57,478 bases of DNA from Gammaproteobacteria bacterium (GTDB lineage: Bacteria; Pseudomonadota; Gammaproteobacteria; Xanthomonadales; Wenzhouxiangellaceae). The stretch's first letter is position 1. Each line of letters starts with the position of its first letter. The position numbers and the translations under genes were made by a program. The notes beneath the pieces are model-generated. The model made no database searches. It was given only the letters and a program-made list of their open reading frames with translations, and was not told the DNA's origin. The stretch covers positions 1 to 57,478 of the forward strand of contig JAHJQV010000014.1 in assembly GCA_018819105.1 (NCBI GenBank). Direction: 5' to 3'. Below, piece after piece: positions 32,555 through 45,350 of the stretch.

Positions 32555-33178
32555 ATGGCAACGGTGGCTCTGAATGTGTCCGGCAAATCCAATCTGTCTC
32601 CGCAGGACTGGGAGCAGGCGGCGCTGGAGTGGATCGCTGAACACGGTGTGGCGGCGCTCAAGGTGGAGCCGCTGGCGCGTCGGCTGGGCATCACCAAAGG
32701 CAGCTTTTACTGGCATTTCAGTGACCGCGAGCAGCTGCTCATGCAGTCACTGCTGCGCTGGGAGCATCTGGATCGCGAAAGTGTGGCGAGGTTTGTCGAG
32801 CGTGAGCAGCCACCGTACGACAAGCTGGCGGACTTTTTTCGTGGCACCAGCCGTCAGCACCTGACTCATAATATATATGGTGCGCTGCTGTCGGCACCGC
32901 GCAATGCCGACATCGCCGCCATTCTGCAGCGTGTTACCCAGTACCGCATGGACTTCCTCAACAACGAATATCTGGCCATGGGGCTGGATGCCGAGCAGGC
33001 CAGACTGCATACCCAGCTGACCTACAGCGCCTACGTCGGTTTCGTGCAGCTGCAGCGGCAGCAGCTGTCAGCCATGATCGATGACGCCGAGCCACTGGAT
33101 TACACCGAACATGTCATTGCCGTGCTGCTGGATGGTGCCCGCGAACTGGCCGCGGGGCGTACACCGCAGCGGTCATGA
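32555..33178 (+). CDS. TetR/AcrR family transcriptional regulator
   Basis: The product is 207 aa. The N-terminal DNA-binding domain is clear: AALEWIAEHGVAALKVEPLA, then RRLGITKGSFYWHFSDREQL, the typical helix-turn-helix with the FYWHF recognition helix end. The C-terminal ligand domain is not assignable. It is divergent from fadE, which suggests autoregulation and control of fadE in response to an acyl-CoA or fatty acid (inference from context). It ends in a 6-bp convergent overlap with the oxygenase gene. Confidence 0.93.
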   Translation: MATVALNVSGKSNLSPQDWEQAALEWIAEHGVAALKVEPLARRLGITKGSFYWHFSDREQLLMQSLLRWEHLDRESVARFVEREQPPYDKLADFFRGTSRQHLTHNIYGALLSAPRNADIAAILQRVTQYRMDFLNNEYLAMGLDAEQARLHTQLTYSAYVGFVQLQRQQLSAMIDDAEPLDYTEHVIAVLLDGARELAAGRTPQRS

Positions 33179-33814
33179 CCGGCGCGGTGGCAAAAGGTCA
33201 ATGTCGAACGTGATCAGCATGCGCTCATCTTTGCCCTGGTGCGGATGGGAAAAATGCTGCAGCCAGCCGGGGAAAACGACGCTGGTGCCATTGCGTGGCT
33301 GAATGCGGTGATCATACGGCCAGCCGTTGCTGGTGGGGTACTGTGATTCCGGGTGCGGATTGATAAAGCTGATGGCACCTTCAGGCTCCGGACGAATCGG
33401 TACCCGCGGGTAATAGGCCAGCACACAGAATCGGTTGCGATGCAGATGCGGTGCCTGATAGGCCCCGGCCGGATACAGCACAGTCCAGGCTGTGGCAAAC
33501 TGGTAACCGACACCTGCAGCCGGCCAGCCGGTCAGCCGATGATGCTCGTGCAGATGGCGGCGAATGTCCGGGTGCACGATCTGCTGCAGAAAAGCCTGCC
33601 AGGCCTCGTCTTCCTCCCAGATCTTGTGCAGATTAAGATCCGGCTGATAGCCATGCTTGGTGGCGATGTCGTGAACGGTTGTCGCATTCCTGATGCTGCG
33701 GTCGCGCTGCATCGTTTTGACGCGTTCATAGACCAGCTCATTCCAGTCGCCGTCACCGTGTTGATTCACAGTCAAAAGCGTAGGAAAAACATTGATGGTG
33801 GTCGCGCGGCTCAT
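33173..33814 (-). CDS. Putative 2OG-Fe(II) oxygenase
   Basis: The product is 213 aa. It resembles the small 2OG-Fe(II) oxygenase family with a PHLHRNRF segment (candidate iron ligands), VLAYYPRVP, and a C-terminal FPGWLQHFSHPHQG followed by RMLITFDIDL, where the second iron-binding His and the 2OG-binding Arg would be expected. Such enzymes hydroxylate proteins or small molecules. It is divergent from the TonB receptor and close to the sulfotransferase/methyltransferase genes, so it may be part of that set. The identification rests on the C-terminal half. Confidence 0.7.
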   Translation of the reverse strand: MSRATTINVFPTLLTVNQHGDGDWNELVYERVKTMQRDRSIRNATTVHDIATKHGYQPDLNLHKIWEEDEAWQAFLQQIVHPDIRRHLHEHHRLTGWPAAGVGYQFATAWTVLYPAGAYQAPHLHRNRFCVLAYYPRVPIRPEPEGAISFINPHPESQYPTSNGWPYDHRIQPRNGTSVVFPGWLQHFSHPHQGKDERMLITFDIDLLPPRRS

Positions 33815-34065
33815 GCTTGCGTTGATTTATTGACCGATGGATTGATTGGAATACAATTGCTTACACCAAGATTATCAGAATATCCCTGTGCTCGGCGGTG
33901 AATGTGAAGAAATTTTTAACAAACTCTTTTCATTGTCGGCCAAAACGTGTAACATCCATTCTGTTCATTCGGGCAATGTCTACCTGCGCTGAGTTCACAG
34001 GGCATCGCCATGAAATGAGCCACGTGGCTAAGTTATTGTTCTAAGAAACAATTTGGAGAAATCTA

Positions 34066-36969
34066 ATGCAATATAACCGTAATCCCCTCTACACGTCCAT
34101 GCGCACAGCATTGGCGACGGGCGCAGTGGCCACCATGGCCCTGTCCGGTCAGGCCTTTGCCCAGGACGATACTGTTGAGCTGGAGCGCGTCGAAACCACC
34201 GGTTCTCGTCTGAGCCAGGTGGACATCGAAGGTGCCCAGCCGGTAACCGTCATTGATCGTGATGACATCGAACGCATTGGTCTGAACGACCTCGGTGACG
34301 TCATCCGTCAGCTGCCATCCATCACCGGTTCGCCGCTGTCTACCCGCACCAACAACGGTGGTAACGGTGGCACACTGGTAGACATCCGTGGTATGGGCAC
34401 TGCACGTACACTGGTTGTCATCAACGGCAAACGCGACATCACCGATGGTGACTTCTCGCTCATTCCGATCGCAGCCGTAGAGCGCATCGAAGTGCTGAAA
34501 GAAGGTGCCGCTGCCATTTATGGTGCCGATGCCGTGGCTGGTGTTGTCAACATCATCACGCGTCAGGATTTCTCCGGTGCCCAGCTGCAGGCGCAGTTTG
34601 GTGCGTCGCTGGAAACCACCGACAACCCTGGTGCTTCCACCATCAACGACCCGCGTGCCAATGGTTCTGATGGCGACAACAAGCGCGTTTCATTCGTGTT
34701 CGGCGACACCAGCGACAAGGGCAGCTTCCTGGTCGGTGTTGAATACAACGAGCAGGATGGCGTGTTCCAGGGCAACATCAATAATCCGCAGTTCCGCAAC
34801 ACCCTGACAGTAACTGCAGCTGGTCAGGAGTTCCTGCTCAACGGTGGCAACCGCGCCATCTTTGACTGTCTGGATGCCGGTGTCTGTACCGATACCGCAG
34901 GCAGTTCTGCTGCGCTCGGTGGCCGTTTCCTGTTCATCGACAACGATGGCGTGACCCAGGATCTGACCCGTGACCTGAATTCTGGCGAGTTGCGTCCATT
35001 CACCGCCACCGACCAGTACAACTACGCACCGATCAACTTCATCCAGACCCCGTTCGAGCGCACCAATCTGTTCGTCCAGGGCAGCTATGACCTGTTCGAC
35101 AACGTGGAAGCCTATGTTGAGGCGCGTTATTCCAACCGTCGTTCCTCACAGTTCCTGGCACCGGTGCCGTACTTCCTCGGTTTCGGCGATCCGGGCTTCC
35201 AGTTCCCTGACGGCGGTGTCGGTGTCTCTGCCGACAACATTTTCAACCCGTTTGGTCAGGATCTGAACACCACCACCAACCTGATCTTCATTGGTCGTCG
35301 TGTGGCGGAAGGTTCGCGTACGTTTGAGCAGACCAACAACAATATCCAGATCAACAGCGGTCTGCGCGGTGACTTCGGTGACTTCGCCCCGACCTGGACC
35401 TGGGACATCAGCTGGAACTGGGGTCGTCAGGATCGTACCGATCAGGACTTCGGCCAGTTCTCTGGCGCGCGCGTCAATCAGGCGCTTGGCCCGTCGTTCA
35501 TCAATGATCAGGGCGTGGCCACCTGTGGTACTCCCGATCAGCCGCTGCCTGGCTGTGTACCGCTGAATCTGTTCGGCGGCTTCGGCACCATCACCCAGGA
35601 AATGCTTGACTTCATCGAGTTTGACCTCAACGATGTCATCGTCAGCAAGCTGCAGATGGCCAATGCCACCTTTGCCGGCGATCTGTTTGATCTGCCTGGT
35701 GGTCCGGTCTCTGCCGCGTTTGGTTACGAGTTCCGTAAAGAGTCTCTGACCGTCACACCGGATTCGGGCAAGTCGTCTGATGCGGTGACCGGCAACACCT
35801 TCGGCCCGACCGCCGGTGAGTTCGACGTAGATTCTCTGTTCGCGGAAATCAACGTGCCGCTGCTGTCCGGCGTACCGGGTGCAGAATTGCTGGAACTTGG
35901 TGCCGGTATCCGTTATGACGACTTCAGCACCATCGGTGACACCACCAACGTGATGTTCACCATGCGCTGGCAGCCGTTCCAGGGTGTACTGGTTCGCGGT
36001 AGCTACGCGGAAGTGTTCCGTGAGCCGTCCATCGGCAACCTGTTCTCCAGCCAGGGCGACAGCTTCCCGTCGTTCCAGGACATCTGCTCCAATGGCTCGC
36101 TGAACAGCCCGGATACCAACCGCTATGAGACCCTGGATGCGGAACAGCAGGCCCGTTGTACTGCACAGGGTGTGCCTGCAGGCGGTTTCTTCCAGAACAA
36201 TGCCCAGCCGCGTACCCGAGTCGGTGGTAACCCGAATCTGGATCCTGAGTCTGGCGAAACCTGGACTGTGGGTATCGCGCTGGCTCCAGAGTTCATGCCC
36301 GGCTTCAGCTTCACGGCTGACTGGTGGGACATCAATCTGGATGACGCCATCACCGCAATCGGTGCACAGAGCATTGTCGACACCTGTATTCTTGACGGTG
36401 TTCAGAGCCTGTGTGAAAACATCAGCCGTAACCCGCTGTCATCCGAGCCCACGGTTCTGGCGTTGACGCAGAACATCGGTAACGAGTCTGCCAGCGGTCT
36501 GGACCTTGCGTTCAACTACAACACCAATACATCCATTGGTTTGTTTGACACCCGCTTCCTGGTAACCTGGCTGGAATCACGCACCTCAACCGTGCTGACC
36601 ACCATTCAGGGCGCAGGCTTCTTCAGCCAGAACGACAATGGTCTGGCCGAAGGCGTGTTCCCAGAATGGAAAGCGCAGTGGACCATCGACTGGAGCTACG
36701 GCAACTTTGGTGCATCCACCAACGTTGAGTGGATTGATTCCACCACCGAGCGTACCAACTTCGGCAACACCACGATCGAGTCAGAAACCTATCTCGACTT
36801 GACCGTGCGTTACAACCTGCCGTGGGGTACCCAGATCAGTGGTGGTATCACCAACATCCTGGACAATGACCCACCATTCATTGTCAACGGATTCAATGCC
36901 AACACCGACAGCGATACCTTCCGTATGCTGGGTCGTTCCTGGTTCGCCAGAGTTACCCACAACTTCTGA
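34066..36969 (+). CDS. TonB-dependent outer-membrane receptor
   Basis: The product is 967 aa. A signal peptide ends AFAQ. The plug domain begins with RVETTGSRL, followed by PVTVIDRDDIERIG, DIRGMGTARTLVVINGKR, VERIEVLKEGAAAIYGADAV and GVVNIITRQ. The C-terminal barrel has FREPSIGNLF, GGNPNLDPESGETWTVG and ends in Phe. This large type, common in marine gammaproteobacteria and xanthomonads, imports unknown substrates, often peptides or glycans. GGAG precedes the ATG by about 10 nt, and an inverted repeat ATTGTT-N6-AACAAT at 34035-34052 lies next to it. Codon choice looks biased to preferred codons, suggesting high expression. Confidence 0.95.
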   Translation: MQYNRNPLYTSMRTALATGAVATMALSGQAFAQDDTVELERVETTGSRLSQVDIEGAQPVTVIDRDDIERIGLNDLGDVIRQLPSITGSPLSTRTNNGGNGGTLVDIRGMGTARTLVVINGKRDITDGDFSLIPIAAVERIEVLKEGAAAIYGADAVAGVVNIITRQDFSGAQLQAQFGASLETTDNPGASTINDPRANGSDGDNKRVSFVFGDTSDKGSFLVGVEYNEQDGVFQGNINNPQFRNTLTVTAAGQEFLLNGGNRAIFDCLDAGVCTDTAGSSAALGGRFLFIDNDGVTQDLTRDLNSGELRPFTATDQYNYAPINFIQTPFERTNLFVQGSYDLFDNVEAYVEARYSNRRSSQFLAPVPYFLGFGDPGFQFPDGGVGVSADNIFNPFGQDLNTTTNLIFIGRRVAEGSRTFEQTNNNIQINSGLRGDFGDFAPTWTWDISWNWGRQDRTDQDFGQFSGARVNQALGPSFINDQGVATCGTPDQPLPGCVPLNLFGGFGTITQEMLDFIEFDLNDVIVSKLQMANATFAGDLFDLPGGPVSAAFGYEFRKESLTVTPDSGKSSDAVTGNTFGPTAGEFDVDSLFAEINVPLLSGVPGAELLELGAGIRYDDFSTIGDTTNVMFTMRWQPFQGVLVRGSYAEVFREPSIGNLFSSQGDSFPSFQDICSNGSLNSPDTNRYETLDAEQQARCTAQGVPAGGFFQNNAQPRTRVGGNPNLDPESGETWTVGIALAPEFMPGFSFTADWWDINLDDAITAIGAQSIVDTCILDGVQSLCENISRNPLSSEPTVLALTQNIGNESASGLDLAFNYNTNTSIGLFDTRFLVTWLESRTSTVLTTIQGAGFFSQNDNGLAEGVFPEWKAQWTIDWSYGNFGASTNVEWIDSTTERTNFGNTTIESETYLDLTVRYNLPWGTQISGGITNILDNDPPFIVNGFNANTDSDTFRMLGRSWFARVTHNF

Positions 36970-37026
36970 TCCGCAGGGATTGAGTCGACAGATCAGTTGA
37001 TCTGAGCGATACAGAAGCAAGGCTAG

Positions 37027-37055
37027 AGGCCGCAGCACTGCTGCGGCCTTTTTTA
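37027..37055 (+). terminator. Rho-independent terminator after the TonB receptor
   Basis: A 9-bp stem AGGCCGCAG pairs with CTGCGGCCT around a 5-nt loop and runs into six T residues. Confidence 0.95.
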
Positions 37056-37118
37056 TGGCTTGCGTCCTGAGACTGAGACAGCCATCATCAGCATGGCATC
37101 ACACATTCAGTTATCACC

Positions 37119-38126
37119 ATGCATGAACACCATCAAATTCTGCTTCACCCCGATTATCTGCTATCCACTCTTGATGCAGAACACTGTCGCTTTGCCGAGA
37201 TCAGTGAACGAACCTATCGTCAGTCTGCATTTCTGGATCATCGCATGCAGCCCATGCCAGATCAGGCCGTGCGGCTGCCAACACAGGCCCTGCTGAAAGC
37301 GCCAGACCACCCGCGAATCAGGCCGGCTGAGCTGATCATTGCGCACAGCAGTTTCTGTGCCTCAACGCTGCTGTCGCGAATGCTCGATGCAGAGGATGTG
37401 CTGGTATTGCGGGAACCGCAGGTGCTGGGTCAACTGGCGAATCTGCGGCGTACAGATAACGGCAGTCAGCGACTGGTGGAGGCGGCGATATGGCAGCTGT
37501 ACAAGCGTTATCACGCGCAGCAAAAACTGGTCATCAAGCTGAGCAATTACGCCAACAATCTGCTTCCTGACATGCTGCGACTAGGCACGCAATCACGCCT
37601 GCTGATCATGCTCGGAAGTCTTGAAGAATTCCTGGTATCCATGCACCTGCACGCAGAGGAAGCCGCCCGCAGCGTGCCGCGATTCCTGCAGGCCATGCAG
37701 CTCGACCTGCCGGACACGACAACATTCAGCAATGGTTGTGGCGAGCCTGATCTGTTCCAGCAGACGTCCATGCTGTGGCATTTGCAGCTGCGACAGTTCA
37801 ATGCACTGCTGGGCCAGTACGATGCCAACATCAGGGTGCTCTTGACCGAGCAGTTCATGGCCGCGCCAGATCAGACCATTACGGCGATCGATCAGTGGAT
37901 CGAAGCTGACCGGGACAATGCACAGCGCGAACGGGTCATTGCCGCCATGATGGGCATCGATGCCAAGTCGCGTGGTGGCGAAGCGTCAGCAGCCAGAAGC
38001 AACACCAGACGCGCATTGCGTGAGTCGCTGCGGAGCCAGATTGATGCCACCAGACAATGGGCAATCGAGCACGGCCTGCATACCACGCACACAGATTTGC
38101 TGCATCCCAGTTACCTGATCGAGTGA
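37119..38126 (+). CDS. Sulfotransferase-like protein
   Basis: The product is 335 aa. The segment ELIIAHSSFCASTLLSRML at about residues 71-89 resembles the PAPS-binding loop of sulfotransferases in a divergent form, followed by VLREPQVLGQL and KLSNYANNLL. A later RLLIMLGSLEEFLVSM occupies the place of the 3'-phosphate-binding motif but lacks the usual Arg-x-Pro. A sulfotransferase fold is likely; activity is less certain. It has no TPR part. It begins 64 bp after the TonB receptor terminator and ends 1 bp from the convergent TPR-sulfotransferase gene. Confidence 0.65.
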   Translation: MHEHHQILLHPDYLLSTLDAEHCRFAEISERTYRQSAFLDHRMQPMPDQAVRLPTQALLKAPDHPRIRPAELIIAHSSFCASTLLSRMLDAEDVLVLREPQVLGQLANLRRTDNGSQRLVEAAIWQLYKRYHAQQKLVIKLSNYANNLLPDMLRLGTQSRLLIMLGSLEEFLVSMHLHAEEAARSVPRFLQAMQLDLPDTTTFSNGCGEPDLFQQTSMLWHLQLRQFNALLGQYDANIRVLLTEQFMAAPDQTITAIDQWIEADRDNAQRERVIAAMMGIDAKSRGGEASAARSNTRRALRESLRSQIDATRQWAIEHGLHTTHTDLLHPSYLIE

Positions 38127-38127
38127 C

Positions 38128-39624
38128 TTATTGAGGCCCGAACTCGTCATCAATCTCGCTGATGGCATCAATCACCGGCTGGATCTTACTGGCATACTGT
38201 TGCCAGGCGGCGTTGGCATCGCGGTAAATCGGTTTGCGCACCTGCATGCGGCTCGGGGTGGCTACACTGTCGGTTTGCTGATGAAACTGCCGGCATTGCT
38301 CATGCCAGTCCAATCCCAGATGTTGCAGCGCTGTGGTCACCACCGGCTTAAAGTCATCAATCAGTGCTTCATAGCGTACGTTGTGAATCTGCGCCGGCAA
38401 CAGCTTCTGCCAAAGCTGCATGTACTGCCGGTAGAGACGGTACACGGCGATGAGATCAGAAAAATCGTTACTGAAACGGGCATGCACATCGCGCGTGAAG
38501 CATGACCACAGGGTTGCCACCGGCTGGCGCACTGTATGAATGATGCGTGCCTGCGGAAACAGCAGGTGAATCAGCCCGAGCAATTGAAAATCAAACGGCA
38601 TTTTATTGATGATGCGCGGGCTAGCGGCGCCGTTGCCGAGCAGTTTCTGCAAATACCAGTCGGCGGCCGATTGCAGCATCGCTGCATCGATTTGCAGCAG
38701 ACATTGCGGATAGTCACCACCGGTCAGTCCGGGCAGTTTGCTACGGGCAATCTGGCGCATGTCGGTCAACTCGCCGCGACCCTCTATCTCGGGATGGCAG
38801 CACAGTATGCGCTCCAGCAGTGTGCTGCCGGTGCGCAACAGACCAACGATGAATACCGGTTGTTCGGATGGATGGCCCCAGGTGCGGCGCGCTGCGAGAA
38901 ATTCGTCACTGAACAGGGCTGCGTGGCTGGCAAACAGGGACTGTTCACGCTCGGCATCGAAGCGTTCGAAGTCTTTGTGGGTCTGCCGTTTGTATTGGTT
39001 GGCCGAGACATAGTGCGCGAAAGCCCGGTCATGGTCTCCACTGGCCTCACTCAGACTGGCCATGGCGAAGTGCAGCGGGTAGCGCTGTGCTGCGCTGAGA
39101 GTGTCGTCGTCCAGCAGTCGCGCCAGTTGCTGTTGTTCAGCACGACTGAATGCATAGTCACCAGTGCTGGCAAGAAAGGCAAGACTGGCATACGCCTCAG
39201 TGATGTGCGGATCCAGCTGCAGGGCCTGATGCAATGCTGCAATGCCCTCCTCGTTGCGGCGCATGTCCAGCAGCAGCTCAGCGCGCAGGTAATGGTGAAA
39301 TGGATTGACCGGATGGATGCTGACAGCGCGCTGAAAAGATTTCAGGGCGGCGTTTGCATCACCTGCCAGACGCTGTGCCTGCGCAAGGTTGCCGTACCAC
39401 TGGCCATGTTCCGGTTGCAGCTGCAGGGCCTGGCCGATCAGCGTCACTGCAGCAGCATAATGTCCGGTGCTCAGTGCAATCAGACCCAGATTGCGACGGC
39501 TCAGGGCATGTTGCGGTTGTCTGCGCAGCACCTCATGATAATGGCGTTGCGCTGTGGCAATGTCACCCTGTTCATGCGCACTGATCGCGCGCCGCAAGTC
39601 ATCTTCCACATCGCTGTTGTTCAA
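38128..39624 (-). CDS. TPR-repeat sulfotransferase, copy 1
   Basis: The product is 498 aa. Residues 1-210 are TPR helices (for example RNLGLIALSTGHYAAAVTLI and GDANAALKSFQRAVSIHP). The sulfotransferase domain starts at 256 with the PAPS loop PVFIVGLLRTGSTLLERIL, then KMPFDFQLLG at 341 and the 3'-phosphate motif IHTVRQPVATLWSCF at 362-376. The C-terminus has the family mark VRKPIYRDANAAWQQY. Members are considered protein or peptide sulfotransferases; the target is unknown. It is divergent from the TPR-PRMT gene across an 85-bp spacer that must hold both promoters. Confidence 0.92.
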   Translation of the reverse strand: MNNSDVEDDLRRAISAHEQGDIATAQRHYHEVLRRQPQHALSRRNLGLIALSTGHYAAAVTLIGQALQLQPEHGQWYGNLAQAQRLAGDANAALKSFQRAVSIHPVNPFHHYLRAELLLDMRRNEEGIAALHQALQLDPHITEAYASLAFLASTGDYAFSRAEQQQLARLLDDDTLSAAQRYPLHFAMASLSEASGDHDRAFAHYVSANQYKRQTHKDFERFDAEREQSLFASHAALFSDEFLAARRTWGHPSEQPVFIVGLLRTGSTLLERILCCHPEIEGRGELTDMRQIARSKLPGLTGGDYPQCLLQIDAAMLQSAADWYLQKLLGNGAASPRIINKMPFDFQLLGLIHLLFPQARIIHTVRQPVATLWSCFTRDVHARFSNDFSDLIAVYRLYRQYMQLWQKLLPAQIHNVRYEALIDDFKPVVTTALQHLGLDWHEQCRQFHQQTDSVATPSRMQVRKPIYRDANAAWQQYASKIQPVIDAISEIDDEFGPQ

Positions 39625-39709
39625 TTCGATAACCGTGCCTGTCAGTGCTCAAGTATCATAACCGAATGTTTAAGATTCGTCGCCAGCCCGCAGCGGCTTT
39701 GTCGCAACC

Positions 39710-41086
39710 ATGAGCAGTGATGCAGCCAGGCTGATGCTGCAAAGCGGTGATCTGCAGTCTGCCAGGCAGTTGGCGGCGAGCGCACTGGCAGCGGCTGCGG
39801 ATGATCGTCAGGCACTGGAGACCCAGATCCGCTGTGATCTGCTGAGCGGAGACCTGCAGCCTGCATTTGAAGCTTTGCAGCAATGGTTGCAGCAACAGCC
39901 GCAAGCGGCGCAGGCCCTGACCCTGCTGGGTGATCTGTACAGCCGCACAGGTAGACTGCAGGAGGCAGCACAGGCCTATCGACAGGCACTGCAGCTACAA
40001 GCCGATGCCATTGAAGCATTAAATGGGCTGACGCTGGTTCTGGTCAGCAGTCAGCAGTTGCCGCAGGCGGAGCAGGTCTGGCAACAGGCCCACGCACAAG
40101 CGCCGGAACATGTGGAAGTGCAGCGCAACCGCAGCCTGTTGAATCGTTGTCAGGCCCCGCGCTGGCACTTCCCCATGGTCAACGACAGTCGCCGCAATGA
40201 TGCCTTTGCCGCAGCCATCGACAAGGCGGTCAAACGCATCAGCGCAAACAGCCCGGACGGCAGTTGCCGGGTGCTCGATATCGGGGCCGGCAGTGGCCTG
40301 TTGTCGATGCTGGCGGCGCGCGCAGGGGCCACACACATTACTGCCTGTGAGGCCAATCCGGCAATGGCGTCCATGGCCAGAAAGGTCATTGCCGACAACG
40401 GCCTGCAGCAGCAGATCAGCATTGTGGCGAAACCGTCCCAGGCCTTGCGTGTGGGAGAGGATCTGCCTGCACCTGTCGACCTGATTCTGGCCGAGGTGTT
40501 TGACAGTGTGGTGATCGGTGAAGGTGCGGTGCCGACCTATGAGCACGCTTTGCGCGAACTGGCTCAGCCAGCCTGTGTGACCATTCCCTGTCGCGCGGAC
40601 ATCATGGCTGCCATGGTCAGCAGTGCGGCCCTGTGGCATGAAGCGGCTGTGGATTTGGTGTCGGGGTTTGATCTGTCGGCACTGAACCGGCTGACACCCG
40701 GCGTGGTGGGTCTGGAGTCCAACCGCTTGCCGCTGCAGGCGGTGTCGGCTCCGCAAACACTGATGAGTTTCGATTTCAGCATGTCCGCCAGGCCGACACC
40801 ATGGCTGCATCAGACCAGCTTGACCTGCACTCAGGAAGCCACCGTGCATGCCATTGTCTACTGGATGCGCTTGTGGCTGGATGACGACATCGTGCTGGAC
40901 AATCGGCCGGATCTGGGCGATGGCCAGCATGCGGGTTTCATCGAGCACTGGGGTCCCATGGCGAGAATTCTCGTCCCCGCTGTGACGCTGGACAGCGGTG
41001 CGTGCCTGCAGGTCGAGACCCACCACAACCGTCGTCAGGTTACCCTGCAGGTGCGTGATCCGGTCACCGGTAAGCTGTTGAGCTGA
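39710..41086 (+). CDS. TPR-repeat protein arginine methyltransferase (PRMT9-like layout)
   Basis: The product is 458 aa. Residues 1-145 are TPR helices (GDLYSRTGRLQEAAQAYRQA). The rest is a PRMT: RWHFPMVNDSRRNDAF at 151-166, SAM motif I VLDIGAGSGLLSMLAARAGA from 188, acidic post-I Glu214, the double-E loop AEVFDSVVIGEG with Glu262 and Glu271, and an HW pair (His414-Trp415) in the place of the THW loop. These features are specific to arginine methyltransferases and the TPR-PRMT order is that of eukaryotic PRMT7/PRMT9-type enzymes. Bacterial members are uncommon. Targets are unknown. The next methyltransferase starts inside its stop (TGATG). Confidence 0.88.
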   Translation: MSSDAARLMLQSGDLQSARQLAASALAAAADDRQALETQIRCDLLSGDLQPAFEALQQWLQQQPQAAQALTLLGDLYSRTGRLQEAAQAYRQALQLQADAIEALNGLTLVLVSSQQLPQAEQVWQQAHAQAPEHVEVQRNRSLLNRCQAPRWHFPMVNDSRRNDAFAAAIDKAVKRISANSPDGSCRVLDIGAGSGLLSMLAARAGATHITACEANPAMASMARKVIADNGLQQQISIVAKPSQALRVGEDLPAPVDLILAEVFDSVVIGEGAVPTYEHALRELAQPACVTIPCRADIMAAMVSSAALWHEAAVDLVSGFDLSALNRLTPGVVGLESNRLPLQAVSAPQTLMSFDFSMSARPTPWLHQTSLTCTQEATVHAIVYWMRLWLDDDIVLDNRPDLGDGQHAGFIEHWGPMARILVPAVTLDSGACLQVETHHNRRQVTLQVRDPVTGKLLS

Positions 41087-42048
41087 TGGCCGACATGCGC
41101 ACTACCGACAGCGTGACAGCCTGGTCACAGTACTGGTCGGCTGGCCGCCTGAGTTCCTGTCCTGGTGCTGCCGACAACAACTATTCCGGTGTCATTGCAG
41201 CAGCGTGGGAAGCGTTTTTTGCCACGATTGCTGCACCCGCAGAATTGCTGGATATTGCCTGCGGCAACGGTGCCCTGCTGGCGTTGGCGCAGGAACATGC
41301 CAGGGCAGTGGGCAAGCGCTGGCAGCTGACCGGAGTGGATCGGGCAGCGGTGGCGCCCGCTGCAGGCTTGAGCGATGCAGACATCAGTCTGCAGCATGGC
41401 ATCGACATGCATGCATTGCCGTTCGCCGACCACAGCTTTGTCATGGTGTGCAGCCAGTTCGGCATCGAGTATGGTCATTTCCCGGACAACCTCACCGAAG
41501 CCCTGCGGGTGCTCAAGCCACAGGGGCGGTTTCAGTTCCTGTTGCACTGTGCGGATTCAGCCATTGCCAGCCGTGCCGAGTTGCAGCTGCAACAGATCGA
41601 TCTGCTGCTGGAGCAATGGGCATTGTTCGGTTTGTTGCAGCAAATGCTGCATGATGAGCCTGAGCCACAGCGGTTTCAGCTTGCCAAACAGCGTTTTGAT
41701 CACGCCGCCGCCAGCGCCTTCGCCTATCTCAAAGCCAACCGGTCGCAACACGATGTCAGCCTGATTGAGCAGAGTCTGCAGCAGTTGGGTGGGATCTGGC
41801 AATCGCGCGGGCAGCAGTCATCGGCAGACGCACTGCAGGCCTGTGCCGATGCGGCGGTGGCTGTGGCAAGCCTGCGCCAGCGTCTGCTGGATCAGCAGGC
41901 TGCTGTGCTTGACCAGGCGCAGGCAGAAAACTGGCAGCAGCTGGCCAGACAACTGGTGGGCCATGCCGAATTGAGCCTTCTGCAACAGCGAGGGCGCGCA
42001 TTGGGATGGTGTTTGACGGGGGGCAATCAGACACTGTCAGCAAGCTAA
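41086..42048 (+). CDS. Class I SAM-dependent methyltransferase
   Basis: The product is 320 aa. The Rossmann core has motif I LLDIACGNGALLALA, an Asp in LTGVDRAAV, then MHALPFADHSFVMVCSQFGI and ALRVLKPQGRFQFLLHC, the Methyltransf_11 pattern. The C-terminal 130 residues are helical and Gln/Ala-rich and are not recognised. It shares one base with the upstream TPR-PRMT stop, so the two are surely cotranscribed and likely act on the same pathway. Substrate unknown. Confidence 0.87.
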   Translation: MADMRTTDSVTAWSQYWSAGRLSSCPGAADNNYSGVIAAAWEAFFATIAAPAELLDIACGNGALLALAQEHARAVGKRWQLTGVDRAAVAPAAGLSDADISLQHGIDMHALPFADHSFVMVCSQFGIEYGHFPDNLTEALRVLKPQGRFQFLLHCADSAIASRAELQLQQIDLLLEQWALFGLLQQMLHDEPEPQRFQLAKQRFDHAAASAFAYLKANRSQHDVSLIEQSLQQLGGIWQSRGQQSSADALQACADAAVAVASLRQRLLDQQAAVLDQAQAENWQQLARQLVGHAELSLLQQRGRALGWCLTGGNQTLSAS

Positions 42049-42064
42049 TAACGTTTATTGCCCA

Positions 42065-43531
42065 CTACTTGCTCTGTGCTGCAATCAGCCGCTGCAGTGG
42101 TTGCAGATGGCTGCGGTATTTATGCCAGGAACGCACCGCGTCCTGGTAGATCGGTTTGCGTGCCTGGGCACGGCTGGCGGTATCGATGACCTGCCGGTTG
42201 CGGTCTGCAGTCAGACAGCGCTCATCCCAGGGCAACTGCAGAAAGGCGATGATCCTCTTCAACTGTTGCTCAGGATCTGCGATCAGCGCTTCATAGGACA
42301 CGTCCAGGATTGGCAACGGCAGGCGCTCGTGCCAGAGCCTCATGTAGTCCTGATACAGCTTGTGGGTGTGCGCGAGATCGTTGAAATCGTTGCAGAAATG
42401 AAGATTCAGATCATGCCGGTAGCACGACCACAGCGTGTCCATGGGATCGCGCTGCAAATGCAGCACACGAGCACGCGGAAACAGCAGCCAGAACAGACCG
42501 AGCAGTTCGTAATTGGAGGGCATCTTGTCGATGCCACGCCGACAGTCTGACGTCGCCGGGGTCATGGCCTGCAAATACCAGTCGCCGGCAGCTTGCAGGC
42601 TGCTGCGATCCAGCTCATTGATGTTTTGCGGAAACCCGAGTCCCGAGGCAACCCTGAAGCCAGCCTTGGCCAGGTTGCGCAGTTGCGGCAGTTCGCCAAA
42701 GGTCTCGATGGCCGGATGATTGTCCAGCATTGCAGTGAGCAGACTGGTGCCTGATCTTGGCAGGCCGACCAGCAACACGGGAAATTCGGATGCATGATCG
42801 GCATGCTGTTGGCTGGCAAACAGTTCCGCACTGAAACACGATTGCATCAGATCAAATTTGCGCTGTTCCAGCGCAGCATCGTAGCGTTGGGGGCCTGGCC
42901 GCTGACTGCTACGAATGGCATTGGCCTGGGTGTAGCTGGCGAAAGCGTCGTTGTACTCAGCCTGCTGATGCTGCAGTATCGCGGCCGCAAAATGCAATCT
43001 TGCAGTGAACCGACCGGCAGCCGGTGCCGAGCGCAGCGCGGTGGTCAGATGCTGTCGCATGTCATCGTCAAACACGACATCACCTGCTTCTGCCAGAGTG
43101 GCCAGTCCATACAGGGCTTCAGCGGTGTAGGTCTGGTCGCCCAGCACATTCCGGTAGGCAGCAACGGCAGCCTTGTAGTCACCACTGATGCTGTACATGT
43201 CGGCCAGCCGACAGTGAAACAGGGCGTAGTCAGGATCCATCTCGATGGCGCGGCGCATCAGCGTGATGGCGTCAGGCAGCTTGCCCCGGCGTTGCAGCGT
43301 CAGCGCCAGGGCTGCCTGCCAGTCGGCAAAGGGCTGCATGCTCAGCGCCTGTCGCAGCAGCGGTTCTGCGGCGTCAATGTTGCCGGTTTCCAGTGCAATG
43401 ATGCCAAGATTGCCCAGCGCTGCTGGATGGTTCGGTTGCTGCTGCAGTGCCTGCTGATACAGCTGCCAGGCCTGCTGTAGCTTGCCGGCAGAGTGTGCCT
43501 GCTCCGCCTGACTGATCAGATCGCCGACCAT
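42065..43531 (-). CDS. TPR-repeat sulfotransferase, copy 2
   Basis: The product is 488 aa. Residues 1-200 are TPR helices (GNLGIIALETGNIDAAEPLL, then GKLPDAITLMRRAIEMDP). The PAPS loop PVLLVGLPRSGTSLLTAML is at 251-269, a better match to consensus than in copy 1. KMPSNYELLGLFWLLFPRAR and LQRDPMDTLWSCY (3'-phosphate motif) follow, and the end has ARKPIYQDAVRSWHKY. It starts 4 nt after the lpdA stop, so it may be the last gene of the central-carbon operon, while its function belongs with the sulfotransferase/PRMT group. Confidence 0.92.
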   Translation of the reverse strand: MVGDLISQAEQAHSAGKLQQAWQLYQQALQQQPNHPAALGNLGIIALETGNIDAAEPLLRQALSMQPFADWQAALALTLQRRGKLPDAITLMRRAIEMDPDYALFHCRLADMYSISGDYKAAVAAYRNVLGDQTYTAEALYGLATLAEAGDVVFDDDMRQHLTTALRSAPAAGRFTARLHFAAAILQHQQAEYNDAFASYTQANAIRSSQRPGPQRYDAALEQRKFDLMQSCFSAELFASQQHADHASEFPVLLVGLPRSGTSLLTAMLDNHPAIETFGELPQLRNLAKAGFRVASGLGFPQNINELDRSSLQAAGDWYLQAMTPATSDCRRGIDKMPSNYELLGLFWLLFPRARVLHLQRDPMDTLWSCYRHDLNLHFCNDFNDLAHTHKLYQDYMRLWHERLPLPILDVSYEALIADPEQQLKRIIAFLQLPWDERCLTADRNRQVIDTASRAQARKPIYQDAVRSWHKYRSHLQPLQRLIAAQSK

Positions 43532-43535
43532 GCTG

Positions 43536-45350
43536 TTATTTTTTTGGCAGGTACAGGTCGGTCAGAGTGCCGGCCATGGCCTCGGCGGCCATGCCCACGG
43601 TTTCTGACAGGGTGGGATGCGGGTGGATGCTGAGGCCGATGTCCTCGGCGTCGCAGCCCATCTCAATGGCCAGGGTGCATTCGGCGATCAGATCACCGGC
43701 CTGCGGCCCGACGATGCCGGCACCGATCAGGCGCTTGCTGTCTGCGTCAAAGATCAGTTTGGTGACACCTTCGCTGCGTGCCATGCCCAGTGAGCGGCCA
43801 CTGGCGGCCCAGGGAAAGCGCGTGACTTCCACCTTCAGCTGCTCTGCTTTGGCCTGGTTCTCGGTCATCCCGACCCAGGCAACTTCCGGATCGGTGTAGG
43901 CCACCGAAGGAATCACGCGGGCATCAAACCAGGCGTTTTCACCGGCTGCGGCCTCGGCGGCCACCTTGCCTTCATGGCTGGCCTTGTGCGCGAGCATGGG
44001 CTGACCGACGATGTCGCCAATGGCGAAGATATGCCGCACATTGCTGCGCTGTTGGCCGTCTACCGGAATGGAGCCACGCTGATCGACCTTGATACCGGCC
44101 TTGCCGGCTTCGATGTTGTGTCCATTGGGTACCCGGCCCACCGCCGCCAGCACGCGCTCGAACTGCTTGCGTTCGGGCGCGTTGTTGCCTTCGTAGTTTA
44201 CCTCGATGTAATCGCTGTGGGCTTTCGCGGTGCTGACTTTGGTGCCGGTATGAAAACTGATGCCGCGCTGCTGCAATCGCTGCTGCAGCGGCTTGACCAG
44301 ATCGCGGTCGGTGCCCGGCATCAGTTCATCGGCCAGCTCGACCACGCAGACCTCACTGCCCAGGGCGCAATAAATGCAGGCCATCTCCAGGCCGATGATG
44401 CCGCCGCCGATGATCAGCAGTGTGGCCGGAATGTCCTGTAGCTTGAGTGCGCCGGTGGAATCCATGACGCGGTCGTCGTCCCAGGGCAGGTTGGGCAGGT
44501 GCACGGCTTCCGAGCCGGCGGCCACGACACACTGGGCAAAGCGGATGCGCTGGCTGCCGCTGGCTGATTTCACGCTGACGGTGTGCGCATCGGCAAACTG
44601 CGCGGCACCGGTGACCACACGCACCTTGCGCTTTTTGGCCAGCCCGTCCAGACCCTGAGTGAGCTTGCCTACGACGCTGTCCTTCCAACCACGCAGGCGA
44701 TCCAGATCAATGCTGGGTTCACCGAAACTGACGCCGTGCTCGGCCATGTCGGCGGCCTCATCAATCACCTTGCCAGTGTGCAGCAGCGCCTTCGATGGAA
44801 TGCAGCCGACGTTCAGGCACACCCCACCCAGACGCGGGTAGCGCTCAATGAGAATCACATCCAGACCCAGGTCGGCAGCGCGGAAAGCGGCGGTGTAGCC
44901 ACCGGGGCCTGCGCCCAGCACCAGCAGATCACAATCGTACTGCGCGGCACCTTCGCTGTTGGCGGCGGTTTCCGGCGCGCCTGAGTTGCCCGCTGACTGC
45001 GTCGAGGCCGAGCCATTGCTGGCGTTGTCGGCCACATCAGCCTGCTCGGTTGCGGCGCTGGTGTAGGTATCGTCGGCAGCCGCAGCGGCACCATCTGATT
45101 CATCTTCGGCTGCGGCCACTTCCAGCGTGGCAATCACATCGCCCTCGCTAACCTCGTCTCCGACCTGCACGTGCACATACACCACCTGACCAGCGCTGGT
45201 TGATGGCACTTCCATGGTCGCCTTGTCCGACTCCAGCGTCACCAGTGGCTGCTCTGCCTCCACGCTGTCACCGGATTTGACCAGCACTTCAATCACCGGA
45301 ACCTGCTCGAAATCACCAATGTCCGGGACCTTGATCTCTATCTTGTTCAT
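43536..45350 (-). CDS. lpdA: Dihydrolipoyl dehydrogenase with N-terminal lipoyl domain
   Basis: The product is 604 aa. Residues 1-80 are a lipoyl domain with the modified Lys43 in ESDKATMEVP. An Ala/Ser/Asp-rich linker follows to about 138. The flavoprotein part has the FAD motif LLVLGAGPGGYTAAFRA, the redox pair CLNVGC, the NAD site LLIIGGGIIGLEMA, and the C-terminal His-Glu pair HPHPTLSETVG. It is the E3 enzyme of pyruvate dehydrogenase and reoxidises lipoyl groups. Its start overlaps the stop of the protease gene upstream (ATGA). Extra lipoyl domains on E3 occur in several beta- and gammaproteobacteria. Confidence 0.96.
   Translation of the reverse strand: MNKIEIKVPDIGDFEQVPVIEVLVKSGDSVEAEQPLVTLESDKATMEVPSTSAGQVVYVHVQVGDEVSEGDVIATLEVAAAEDESDGAAAAADDTYTSAATEQADVADNASNGSASTQSAGNSGAPETAANSEGAAQYDCDLLVLGAGPGGYTAAFRAADLGLDVILIERYPRLGGVCLNVGCIPSKALLHTGKVIDEAADMAEHGVSFGEPSIDLDRLRGWKDSVVGKLTQGLDGLAKKRKVRVVTGAAQFADAHTVSVKSASGSQRIRFAQCVVAAGSEAVHLPNLPWDDDRVMDSTGALKLQDIPATLLIIGGGIIGLEMACIYCALGSEVCVVELADELMPGTDRDLVKPLQQRLQQRGISFHTGTKVSTAKAHSDYIEVNYEGNNAPERKQFERVLAAVGRVPNGHNIEAGKAGIKVDQRGSIPVDGQQRSNVRHIFAIGDIVGQPMLAHKASHEGKVAAEAAAGENAWFDARVIPSVAYTDPEVAWVGMTENQAKAEQLKVEVTRFPWAASGRSLGMARSEGVTKLIFDADSKRLIGAGIVGPQAGDLIAECTLAIEMGCDAEDIGLSIHPHPTLSETVGMAAEAMAGTLTDLYLPKK

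Follow-up and report, generated by a model that had tools for sequence, protein, structure and literature searches.

A candidate set of TPR-guided polypeptide modifiers linked to TonB-dependent receptors in the Xanthomonadales

Closest described systems and the receptor island

The eukaryotic tetratricopeptide repeat (TPR) enzymes OGT, AspH and PRMT9 act on proteins; PRMT7 and PRMT9 carry two catalytic domains, and enzymes of their type act on protein arginine. Protein-tyrosine sulfotransferases (TPSTs) are Golgi enzymes without TPR. In bacteria, a cytosolic enzyme of GT41/HMW1C-type glycosylation marks unfolded exported adhesins, providing a precedent for the cytosolic marking proposed below, and TonB-linked peptide modification by 2-oxoglutarate (2OG) enzymes was reportedly predicted by Iyer et al. 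in 2010. Here, these systems are compared with an island at positions 33173-43531 of contig JAHJQV010000014.1 (assembly GCA_018819105.1) from a gammaproteobacterium of the Wenzhouxiangellaceae, in which enzymes of related kinds surround a TonB-dependent receptor (TBDR). The window denotes the whole stretch of 57,478 nucleotides, whose numbering is used throughout.

The RaxST/RaxX system of Xanthomonas is coupled to type I secretion and has a single known precursor, and its cluster is not known to hold TPR modules, a methyltransferase or a TBDR. It can be compared with the sulfation predicted for the island because it sulfates a peptide on tyrosine in a bacterium (PMC4216712, PMC6637879). Judged by sequence, every component of the island belongs to or resembles known families and the whole would be a receptor-linked modification locus of a known kind; no description of the recurrent combination was found in a literature search with poor coverage of subscription journals.

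An earlier note, made from the letters of this DNA alone, had placed six enzyme genes around one TBDR; this count is right, and all seven genes are open frames at the stated place. From left to right these encode a 2OG-Fe(II) oxygenase (–), the TBDR (+), a divergent sulfotransferase (ST335, +), a TPR-sulfotransferase (TPRST1, –), a TPR protein joined to a protein arginine methyltransferase-like domain (TPR-PRMT, +), an S-adenosylmethionine (SAM) methyltransferase (MT2, +) and a second TPR-sulfotransferase (TPRST2, –). The reading we put forward, at about even chances, is that they represent one copy of a recurrent set, tied to a TBDR, of enzymes that modify polypeptides in the cytosol under TPR guidance, the most likely substrate being the receptor precursor or a peptide handled by the receptor. 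Of the note's proposal of a protein-modification system, three parts stood, namely families with known protein or peptide modifiers, key residues and a recurrent set, while the co-occurrence of TPR-PRMT beyond the genus did not.

Recurrence of the receptor neighbourhood

The recurrence was assessed around MT2, which in the window is 4.1 kb away from the TBDR, with TPRST2 and TPR-PRMT as direct neighbours. In a sample of 250 genomes of the order, own genome included, up to nine MT2 candidates per genome were scored, and the 40 best places after the window and its ortholog in a genome of the same genus (G149) were taken regardless of context. Neighbours were surveyed within 5 kb, with frames taken at their longest, so that some gaps between MT2 and its neighbours are underestimated. 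Sulfotransferases were counted with a profile built on the catalytic domains alone (the whole-protein profile also caught TPR-oxygenases), and representatives of the surveyed enzymes were checked by Pfam.

A TBDR was present in 29/40 loci, when about 7% would be expected from the 17 TBDRs of the own genome, and the linked receptors were spread over 7/7 families and 15/19 genera; in 20 of the 29 the TBDR stood at most 300 bases from MT2. TPR-sulfotransferases were found in 21/40 loci, 14 of them within 60 bases of MT2, and any PF13469-type sulfotransferase in 23/40. The remaining partners were PF13759 oxygenases (10/40), TPR-Asp/Asn hydroxylases of PF05118 (10/40: L112, L114, L116, L117, L118, L121, L133, L134, L138, L141), ST335 (2/40) and TPR-GT41 proteins (2/40), the last without a Pfam match among the island proteins. 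Altogether, at least one TPR enzyme occurred in 25/40 loci, and 26/40 had both a TBDR and some modifying enzyme. Outside the order, seven MT2 loci gave a TBDR in 6/7, a PF13759 oxygenase in 3/7, a TPR-sulfotransferase in 2/7, an Asp/Asn hydroxylase in 2/7 and a TPR enzyme in 3/7. By the same method, 11 control loci of the order with divergent PRMT-like genes, some of which are short or near contig ends (e.g., L042, L046, L051) and thus less apt to reveal a neighbour, contained no TBDR, sulfotransferase, PF13759 oxygenase, ST335 or MT2.

Since receptor, sulfotransferases, methyltransferase and 2OG oxygenase recur together across families, their assembly in the window is not a chance pile. Moreover, five unrelated catalytic domains were found with TPRs in these loci: sulfotransferase, PF13759 oxygenase, Asp/Asn beta-hydroxylase, GT41 and, in this genus only, PRMT. 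In one locus (L122:5183-7456), TPRs, a sulfotransferase of PF13469 and a methyltransferase of the MT2 type are fused in a single frame of 757 amino acids, with a TonB receptor and another MT2 copy alongside; this fusion is the strongest single hint in the sequences that sulfation and methylation might serve one substrate. No plasmid records were found for the named MT2 relatives.

Catalytic domains and the range of the TPR-PRMT

TPRST1 and TPRST2, announced in the earlier note as TPR-sulfotransferases with loops for 3′-phosphoadenosine 5′-phosphosulfate (PAPS), matched PF13469 with 126.6 and 127.6 bits (cut-off 27), both with TPR repeats and with 5′-phosphosulfate loops of the PRSGT/LRTGS type. 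The best solved relatives of their catalytic domains were TPST1/2, at E values of only about 1e-10 (8w5z: 8.7e-11 for TPRST1, 6.5e-10 for the TPRST2 domain). In a 15-row alignment, one row of which (L207) is a TPR-oxygenase, R264, E285 and K341 of TPRST1 were invariant or nearly so, and the same columns align in TPST with the P-loop arginine, the glutamate that follows a conserved HP, and the DK/NK lysine; the corresponding Arg, Glu and Lys are catalytic in TPST2. The own genome carries further TPR-sulfotransferases, one with receptors on both sides (contig C66), one with a receptor at a distance of about 1.4 kb (C22) and a third without a receptor near (C56).

The divergent third sulfotransferase, ST335, had no Pfam match at E 0.01; the profile of its family matched that of the TPR-sulfotransferase domain with 96.1% probability (hhalign, E 3.3e-9), the loops being aligned, which upheld the note on this gene. 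Against the Protein Data Bank, the ST335 profile matched 2zq5 at E 1.6e-7 (labelled putative uncharacterized protein) and 4gox at E 0.0024 (labelled polyketide synthase), the latter presumably a sulfotransferase domain; the weaker matches, with E values from 0.075 to 1.7, all carried the label sulfotransferase or retinol dehydratase. The family preserves invariant H, S82-T83, E99-P100 and K140 columns, and a single-sequence AlphaFold2 model reached a pLDDT (predicted local distance difference test) of 36.5. By profile, then, ST335 is a predicted member of the sulfotransferase superfamily. Its neighbours were counted in 20 of the 28 other genomes with a match, one place each, giving a TBDR in 7/20, a TPR-sulfotransferase in 7/20 and MT2 in 6/20 within 5 kb.

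MT2 proved to be the coupled class I SAM methyltransferase that had been described, its start overlapping the TPR-PRMT stop by one base. It matches small-molecule methyltransferases of the UbiE/MenG type, with no protein methyltransferase among the matches listed. A paralogue (L135:8357-9490, contig C34 of the own genome) occupies a housekeeping site that is conserved and lies close to an MreB-like gene of 349 amino acids, named by eye, with no receptor near; the MreB-like genes of L110, L111 and L124 are 86-98.6% identical to that of L135, the four genomes belonging to the family.

The 2OG oxygenase reached 45.7 bits with PF13759 (cut-off 27). An HxH...H...R pattern, which provides the iron and 2OG ligands in such enzymes, was observed in 20 aligned relatives, and inspection by eye places it in the window protein as well; relatives at 55-56% occur in genomes G020 and G114, the G020 copy at the same chromosomal site.

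The TBDR gave Pfam matches for plug (81.2 bits) and barrel (105.4 bits), a signal peptide is likely by eye, and relatives at 55-64% were found in G109, G020 and G173. A pattern of the N.NPL..AI..AL type, defined post hoc, was observed in the N-terminal stretch of 27/47 receptors linked to the set vs. 2/16 unlinked ones, a comparison confounded by subfamily; the signal region of the window receptor (34066-34150), MQYNRNPLYTSMRTAL, fails the strict pattern. Short frames directly upstream of receptors pair up between loci (window 33898-34044/L070, L123/L125, L122/L140, L131/L145), and these are perhaps receptor leader or regulatory DNA rather than a peptide gene.

In TPR-PRMT, Pfam recognized TPR repeats and a class I methyltransferase, and no PRMT family at E 0.01. 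A phmmer search of solved structures placed PRMT7 first (4c4a, E 2.6e-41, two matched stretches), followed among methyltransferases by 8rbk ("MGC151858 protein", which we take to be PRMT9; E 3.5e-30), whose alignment begins within the TPR part, and by chains labelled PRMT9 (6pdm, E 7.5e-26). A profile of 13 proteins (the window protein, its G149 ortholog and 11 relatives in other classes, the contig-cut L205 being left out) matched 4c4a at 7.7e-94 and 8rbk at 1.7e-93, the next named class being PRMT6 at 4.5e-44. The motif I, double-E and HW elements that the note had listed are in place: motif I reads GAGSG, with G192, G194, G196 and the post-I acid E214 invariant in the 13 proteins; of the double E, E262 is invariant and E271 nearly so, the loop aligning with PRMT7 ITELFDTELIGEG; the THW-type loop is H413-W414, with W414 invariant. 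Together with the sulfotransferase columns above, these were the key residues whose absence would have spoken against the note. At E 0.01, the matches listed for TPR-PRMT did not include the C-terminal PRMT barrel PF22528, which one relative (L195) reached with 39.4 bits (cut-off 27). AlphaFold2, given two sequences, returned a pLDDT of 58.3, with residues 1-140 helical (63-93 in ten-residue blocks) and the catalytic part poorly modelled, mostly below 50. The protein is of PRMT7/PRMT9 type in sequence and a predicted protein arginine methyltransferase; it differs from those eukaryotic enzymes in having one catalytic domain, in being bacterial and in adjoining a TonB receptor.

The range of TPR-PRMT is narrow. 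A search scoring up to six candidates per genome found a full-length ortholog in 1/249 other genomes of the order, the same-genus G149 (56% identity over residues 5-457), the next-best match reaching 38% over residues 152-307; a pattern scan of genome contigs, sensitive to close relatives only, returned a single locus, on the 19,474-base contig of the metagenome-assembled genome OFTM86 (L039), which is as long as contig C104 of G149. G149 keeps the order TPRST1-PRMT-MT2-TPRST2-lpdA, with one contig ending at FadE-TetR and another starting at TPRST1 (C96/C104 break), the part with 2OG, receptor and ST335 being unassembled. Across the remaining MT2 loci, 47 in number, the annotation lists no PRMT-type gene. 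In a sample of 398 genomes of the phylum (top five candidates per genome), 14 including the own genome matched the PRMT profile at E 1e-15; 12 of the other 13 were examined (L194-L205, the weakest, G611, being left out). Recognised TPRs were present in 7/12, and 11 shared 25-34% identity with the window protein and a WHxPMxND-RN type domain start; unlike the window, 0/12 had MT2, a PF13759 oxygenase, a sulfotransferase or a TBDR in the 5 kb around the gene. The closest bacterial relatives beyond the genus come from other classes and score as high as 174 bits across the PRMT part; for the PRMT-like proteins retrieved from the order itself, the maximum is 67 bits.

A conserved system of TPR-PRMT, receptor and sulfotransferases, the co-occurrence that the earlier note had proposed to look for, was therefore rejected, the only ortholog found being that of G149 and none of the 12 relatives being linked. 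The PRMT seems to have been added locally, as a late recruit, and we infer that it joined the receptor island within this genus and that relatives elsewhere can also adjoin TPR enzymes. In two of the 12 relatives (L196, L198, outside the order), a TPR-PRMT adjoins TPR-GT41 genes, one neighbour each having been checked by Pfam. The order also holds a separate set of PRMT-like proteins (L041-L051), several with an unrecognised N-terminal domain of about 100 amino acids; a "PqqD-like" identity of this N-terminus received no support from Pfam in the three scanned.

Proposed mechanism, candidate substrate and competing explanations

In the proposed mechanism, the TPR modules would hold an extended polypeptide in the cytosol while the attached catalytic domains modify it, a cytosolic site being proposed because PAPS and SAM are cytosolic. 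TPRST1, TPRST2 and probably ST335 would carry out tyrosine-type O-sulfation, MT2 would add a methyl group at an unspecified position, the 2OG oxygenase would hydroxylate and, in this genus, TPR-PRMT would methylate arginine. The modified chain would be exported afterwards and would work at the outer membrane with the receptor. A polypeptide substrate is favoured because TPRs accompany five catalytic domains and the substrates of OGT, AspH and PRMT9 are proteins, and the receptor, as the most constant non-enzyme partner, makes itself or its peptide the first candidate; the likeliest substrate would be the unfolded receptor precursor or a peptide handled by the receptor. We infer the polypeptide substrate, its receptor link, the late PRMT recruitment and every reaction product. 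A fuller version, in which TPR-guided writers would place several marks on an outer-membrane receptor or its peptide partner before export, with sulfate, methyl, hydroxyl and N-acetylglucosamine-type modules being exchangeable and the genus having added a PRMT7/PRMT9-type enzyme, is, taken as a whole, unlikely.

Several observations weigh against the proposal of TPR-guided polypeptide modifiers. Eleven of the 40 MT2 loci show no TBDR: four hold the paralogue by the mreB-like gene (L110, L111, L124, L135), four are truncated by the ends of their contigs (L113, L119, L138, L143) and three are unexplained (L129, L148, L149). No TBDR lay within 5 kb in 13/20 ST335 loci, and TPR-PRMT and the receptor are seen together in a single assembly, since that of G149 breaks where its receptor would lie. 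The TPR proteins adjoining MT2 in L113, L131 and L143 revealed no catalytic domain when scanned, and near the PRMT-like gene of one of the control loci (L047) there is a GT41-type match that lacks TPR. The search for a substrate gave no widespread family among 586 short frames from 50 loci and the window; the largest cluster covered four loci and was compositional by eye, the others being two-locus pairs, with frames overprinted by larger called frames left out. Finally, the window receptor contains 1.86% tyrosine, not above the mean of unlinked receptors (2.24%, n=16), and thus gives no sign of shaping for tyrosine sulfation. Linked receptors average 3.87% (n=47), a composition difference confounded by subfamily and not shared by the window receptor; apart from it, a comparison of linked receptors for enrichment of tyrosine or other residues gave no more than two tyrosine columns (617, 620).

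The alternative that fares best, although doubtful, is that the enzymes tailor a small molecule, either a metabolite produced elsewhere or a ligand imported by the receptor, with the TPRs serving complex assembly and not substrate binding. Small ligands are what TBDRs usually import, 4gox (labelled polyketide synthase) is also among the matches of the sulfotransferase sequences, and the matches of MT2 are those to small-molecule enzymes given above. Conversely, none of the eight window proteins scanned was a nonribosomal peptide synthetase, polyketide synthase or ligase scaffold gene product, and of the five recurring TPR-linked domains three are eukaryotic protein modifiers, among which the PRMT7/PRMT9 type targets protein arginine.

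Quite unlikely is a pathway resembling those of ribosomally synthesized and post-translationally modified peptides (RiPPs), in which a ribosomal peptide would be tailored from a precursor gene that is unlinked or too short or variable, the receptor importing or sensing the product. Such a pathway would accord with ortholog clusters 1738 to 1748 of Pontixanthobacter/Allopontixanthobacter, which include a lasso peptide B2 protein, sulfotransferases and aspartyl beta-hydroxylase (PMC10040529), and with RaxX/RaxST, a known bacterial tyrosine-sulfated peptide system (PMC6637879). The short-frame clustering, however, gave no precursor family over the 50 cassettes and the window, and there was no RiPP maturase among the eight window proteins scanned. 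That the genes belong to separate pathways and only share a stable chromosomal site on the phosphoenolpyruvate carboxykinase (PEPCK) or pdh side is very unlikely: the pdh/FadE flanks are conserved and a PEPCK-type gene recurs, but the set appears in varied gene order in seven families and outside the order, is fused once, and shows a turnover of enzyme types around a constant receptor and MT2 that is unlike a frozen neighbourhood.

If TPR-guided modification of a receptor-linked polypeptide is correct, tyrosine sulfation, arginine methylation, Asp/Asn hydroxylation and GT41-type glycosylation, which are seen as eukaryotic, would be gathered around one bacterial receptor type with TPR modules as their common guide. 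Such a locus would be a bacterial counterpart of eukaryotic TPR-guided protein modification, would add a layer of control on nutrient receptors and would offer a small tractable system for the substrate choice of TPR enzymes. Whatever the mechanism, bacterial PRMTs nearest to PRMT7/PRMT9, several of them with TPRs, bear on the origin of those eukaryotic enzymes.

Coordinates, flanks and corresponding sites in relatives

Table 1. Features of the island and its borders, in window numbering.
Feature	Position	Strand	Basis
TetR regulator, left island edge	32555..33178	+	PF00440
2OG-Fe(II) oxygenase, PF13759, 213 aa	33173..33814	-	Pfam
TonB-dependent receptor, 967 aa, "TGSR" plug type	34066..36969	+	PF07715 + PF00593
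ST335, divergent sulfotransferase without TPR, 335 aa	37119..38126	+	profile-profile match, invariant columns
TPRST1, TPR repeats + TPST-like sulfotransferase, 498 aa	38128..39624	-	PF13469 + TPRs
TPR-PRMT, TPR part (about residues 1-148) + PRMT7/PRMT9-type domain, 458 aa	39710..41086	+	sequence relatives, alignment
TPR-PRMT double-E loop, E262 to E271	40493..40522	+	alignment + residue check
MT2, class I SAM methyltransferase	41086..42048	+	PF13649/PF08241
TPRST2, TPR repeats + TPST-like sulfotransferase, 488 aa	42065..43531	-	PF13469 + TPRs
lpdA, last gene of pyruvate dehydrogenase operon, right flank	43536..45350	-	name by eye

The island sits between a TetR-FadE pair and the pyruvate dehydrogenase operon, whose lpdA and pdh gene names we assume by eye. 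The left flank is retained in G020, G109 and G149, and TetR is probably a conserved flank and not an island member; lpdA on the right was also found in G149, G020 and G114. TPRST2 lies 4 bases downstream of lpdA in the window (42065-45350), the spacing being 13 bases in G149, and on account of this proximity it may be transcribed together with the pdh operon. With a GC content of 0.57-0.62, the island genes differ little from the window as a whole (mean 0.608), which gives no plain sign of recent foreign origin.

At the corresponding site of G020, another genus of the same family, the stretch from lpdA to TetR-FadE harbors two ST335-like genes, a 61% receptor, a TPR-sulfotransferase, PEPCK and a 55% 2OG oxygenase, with no PRMT and no MT2. 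The PEPCK-type gene was matched in 16 frames of the loci (three checked by Pfam); this gene, labelled "P580" before its identification as PEPCK, is taken as a neighbour rather than a cassette enzyme. G109 carries three window-type receptors in tandem (L069:213-10141) with a TPR-sulfotransferase beside TetR, and two more on contig C42 (L068). At its contig ends, one MT2 fragment lies beside a receptor (L068) and another is directly followed by ST335 (L150).

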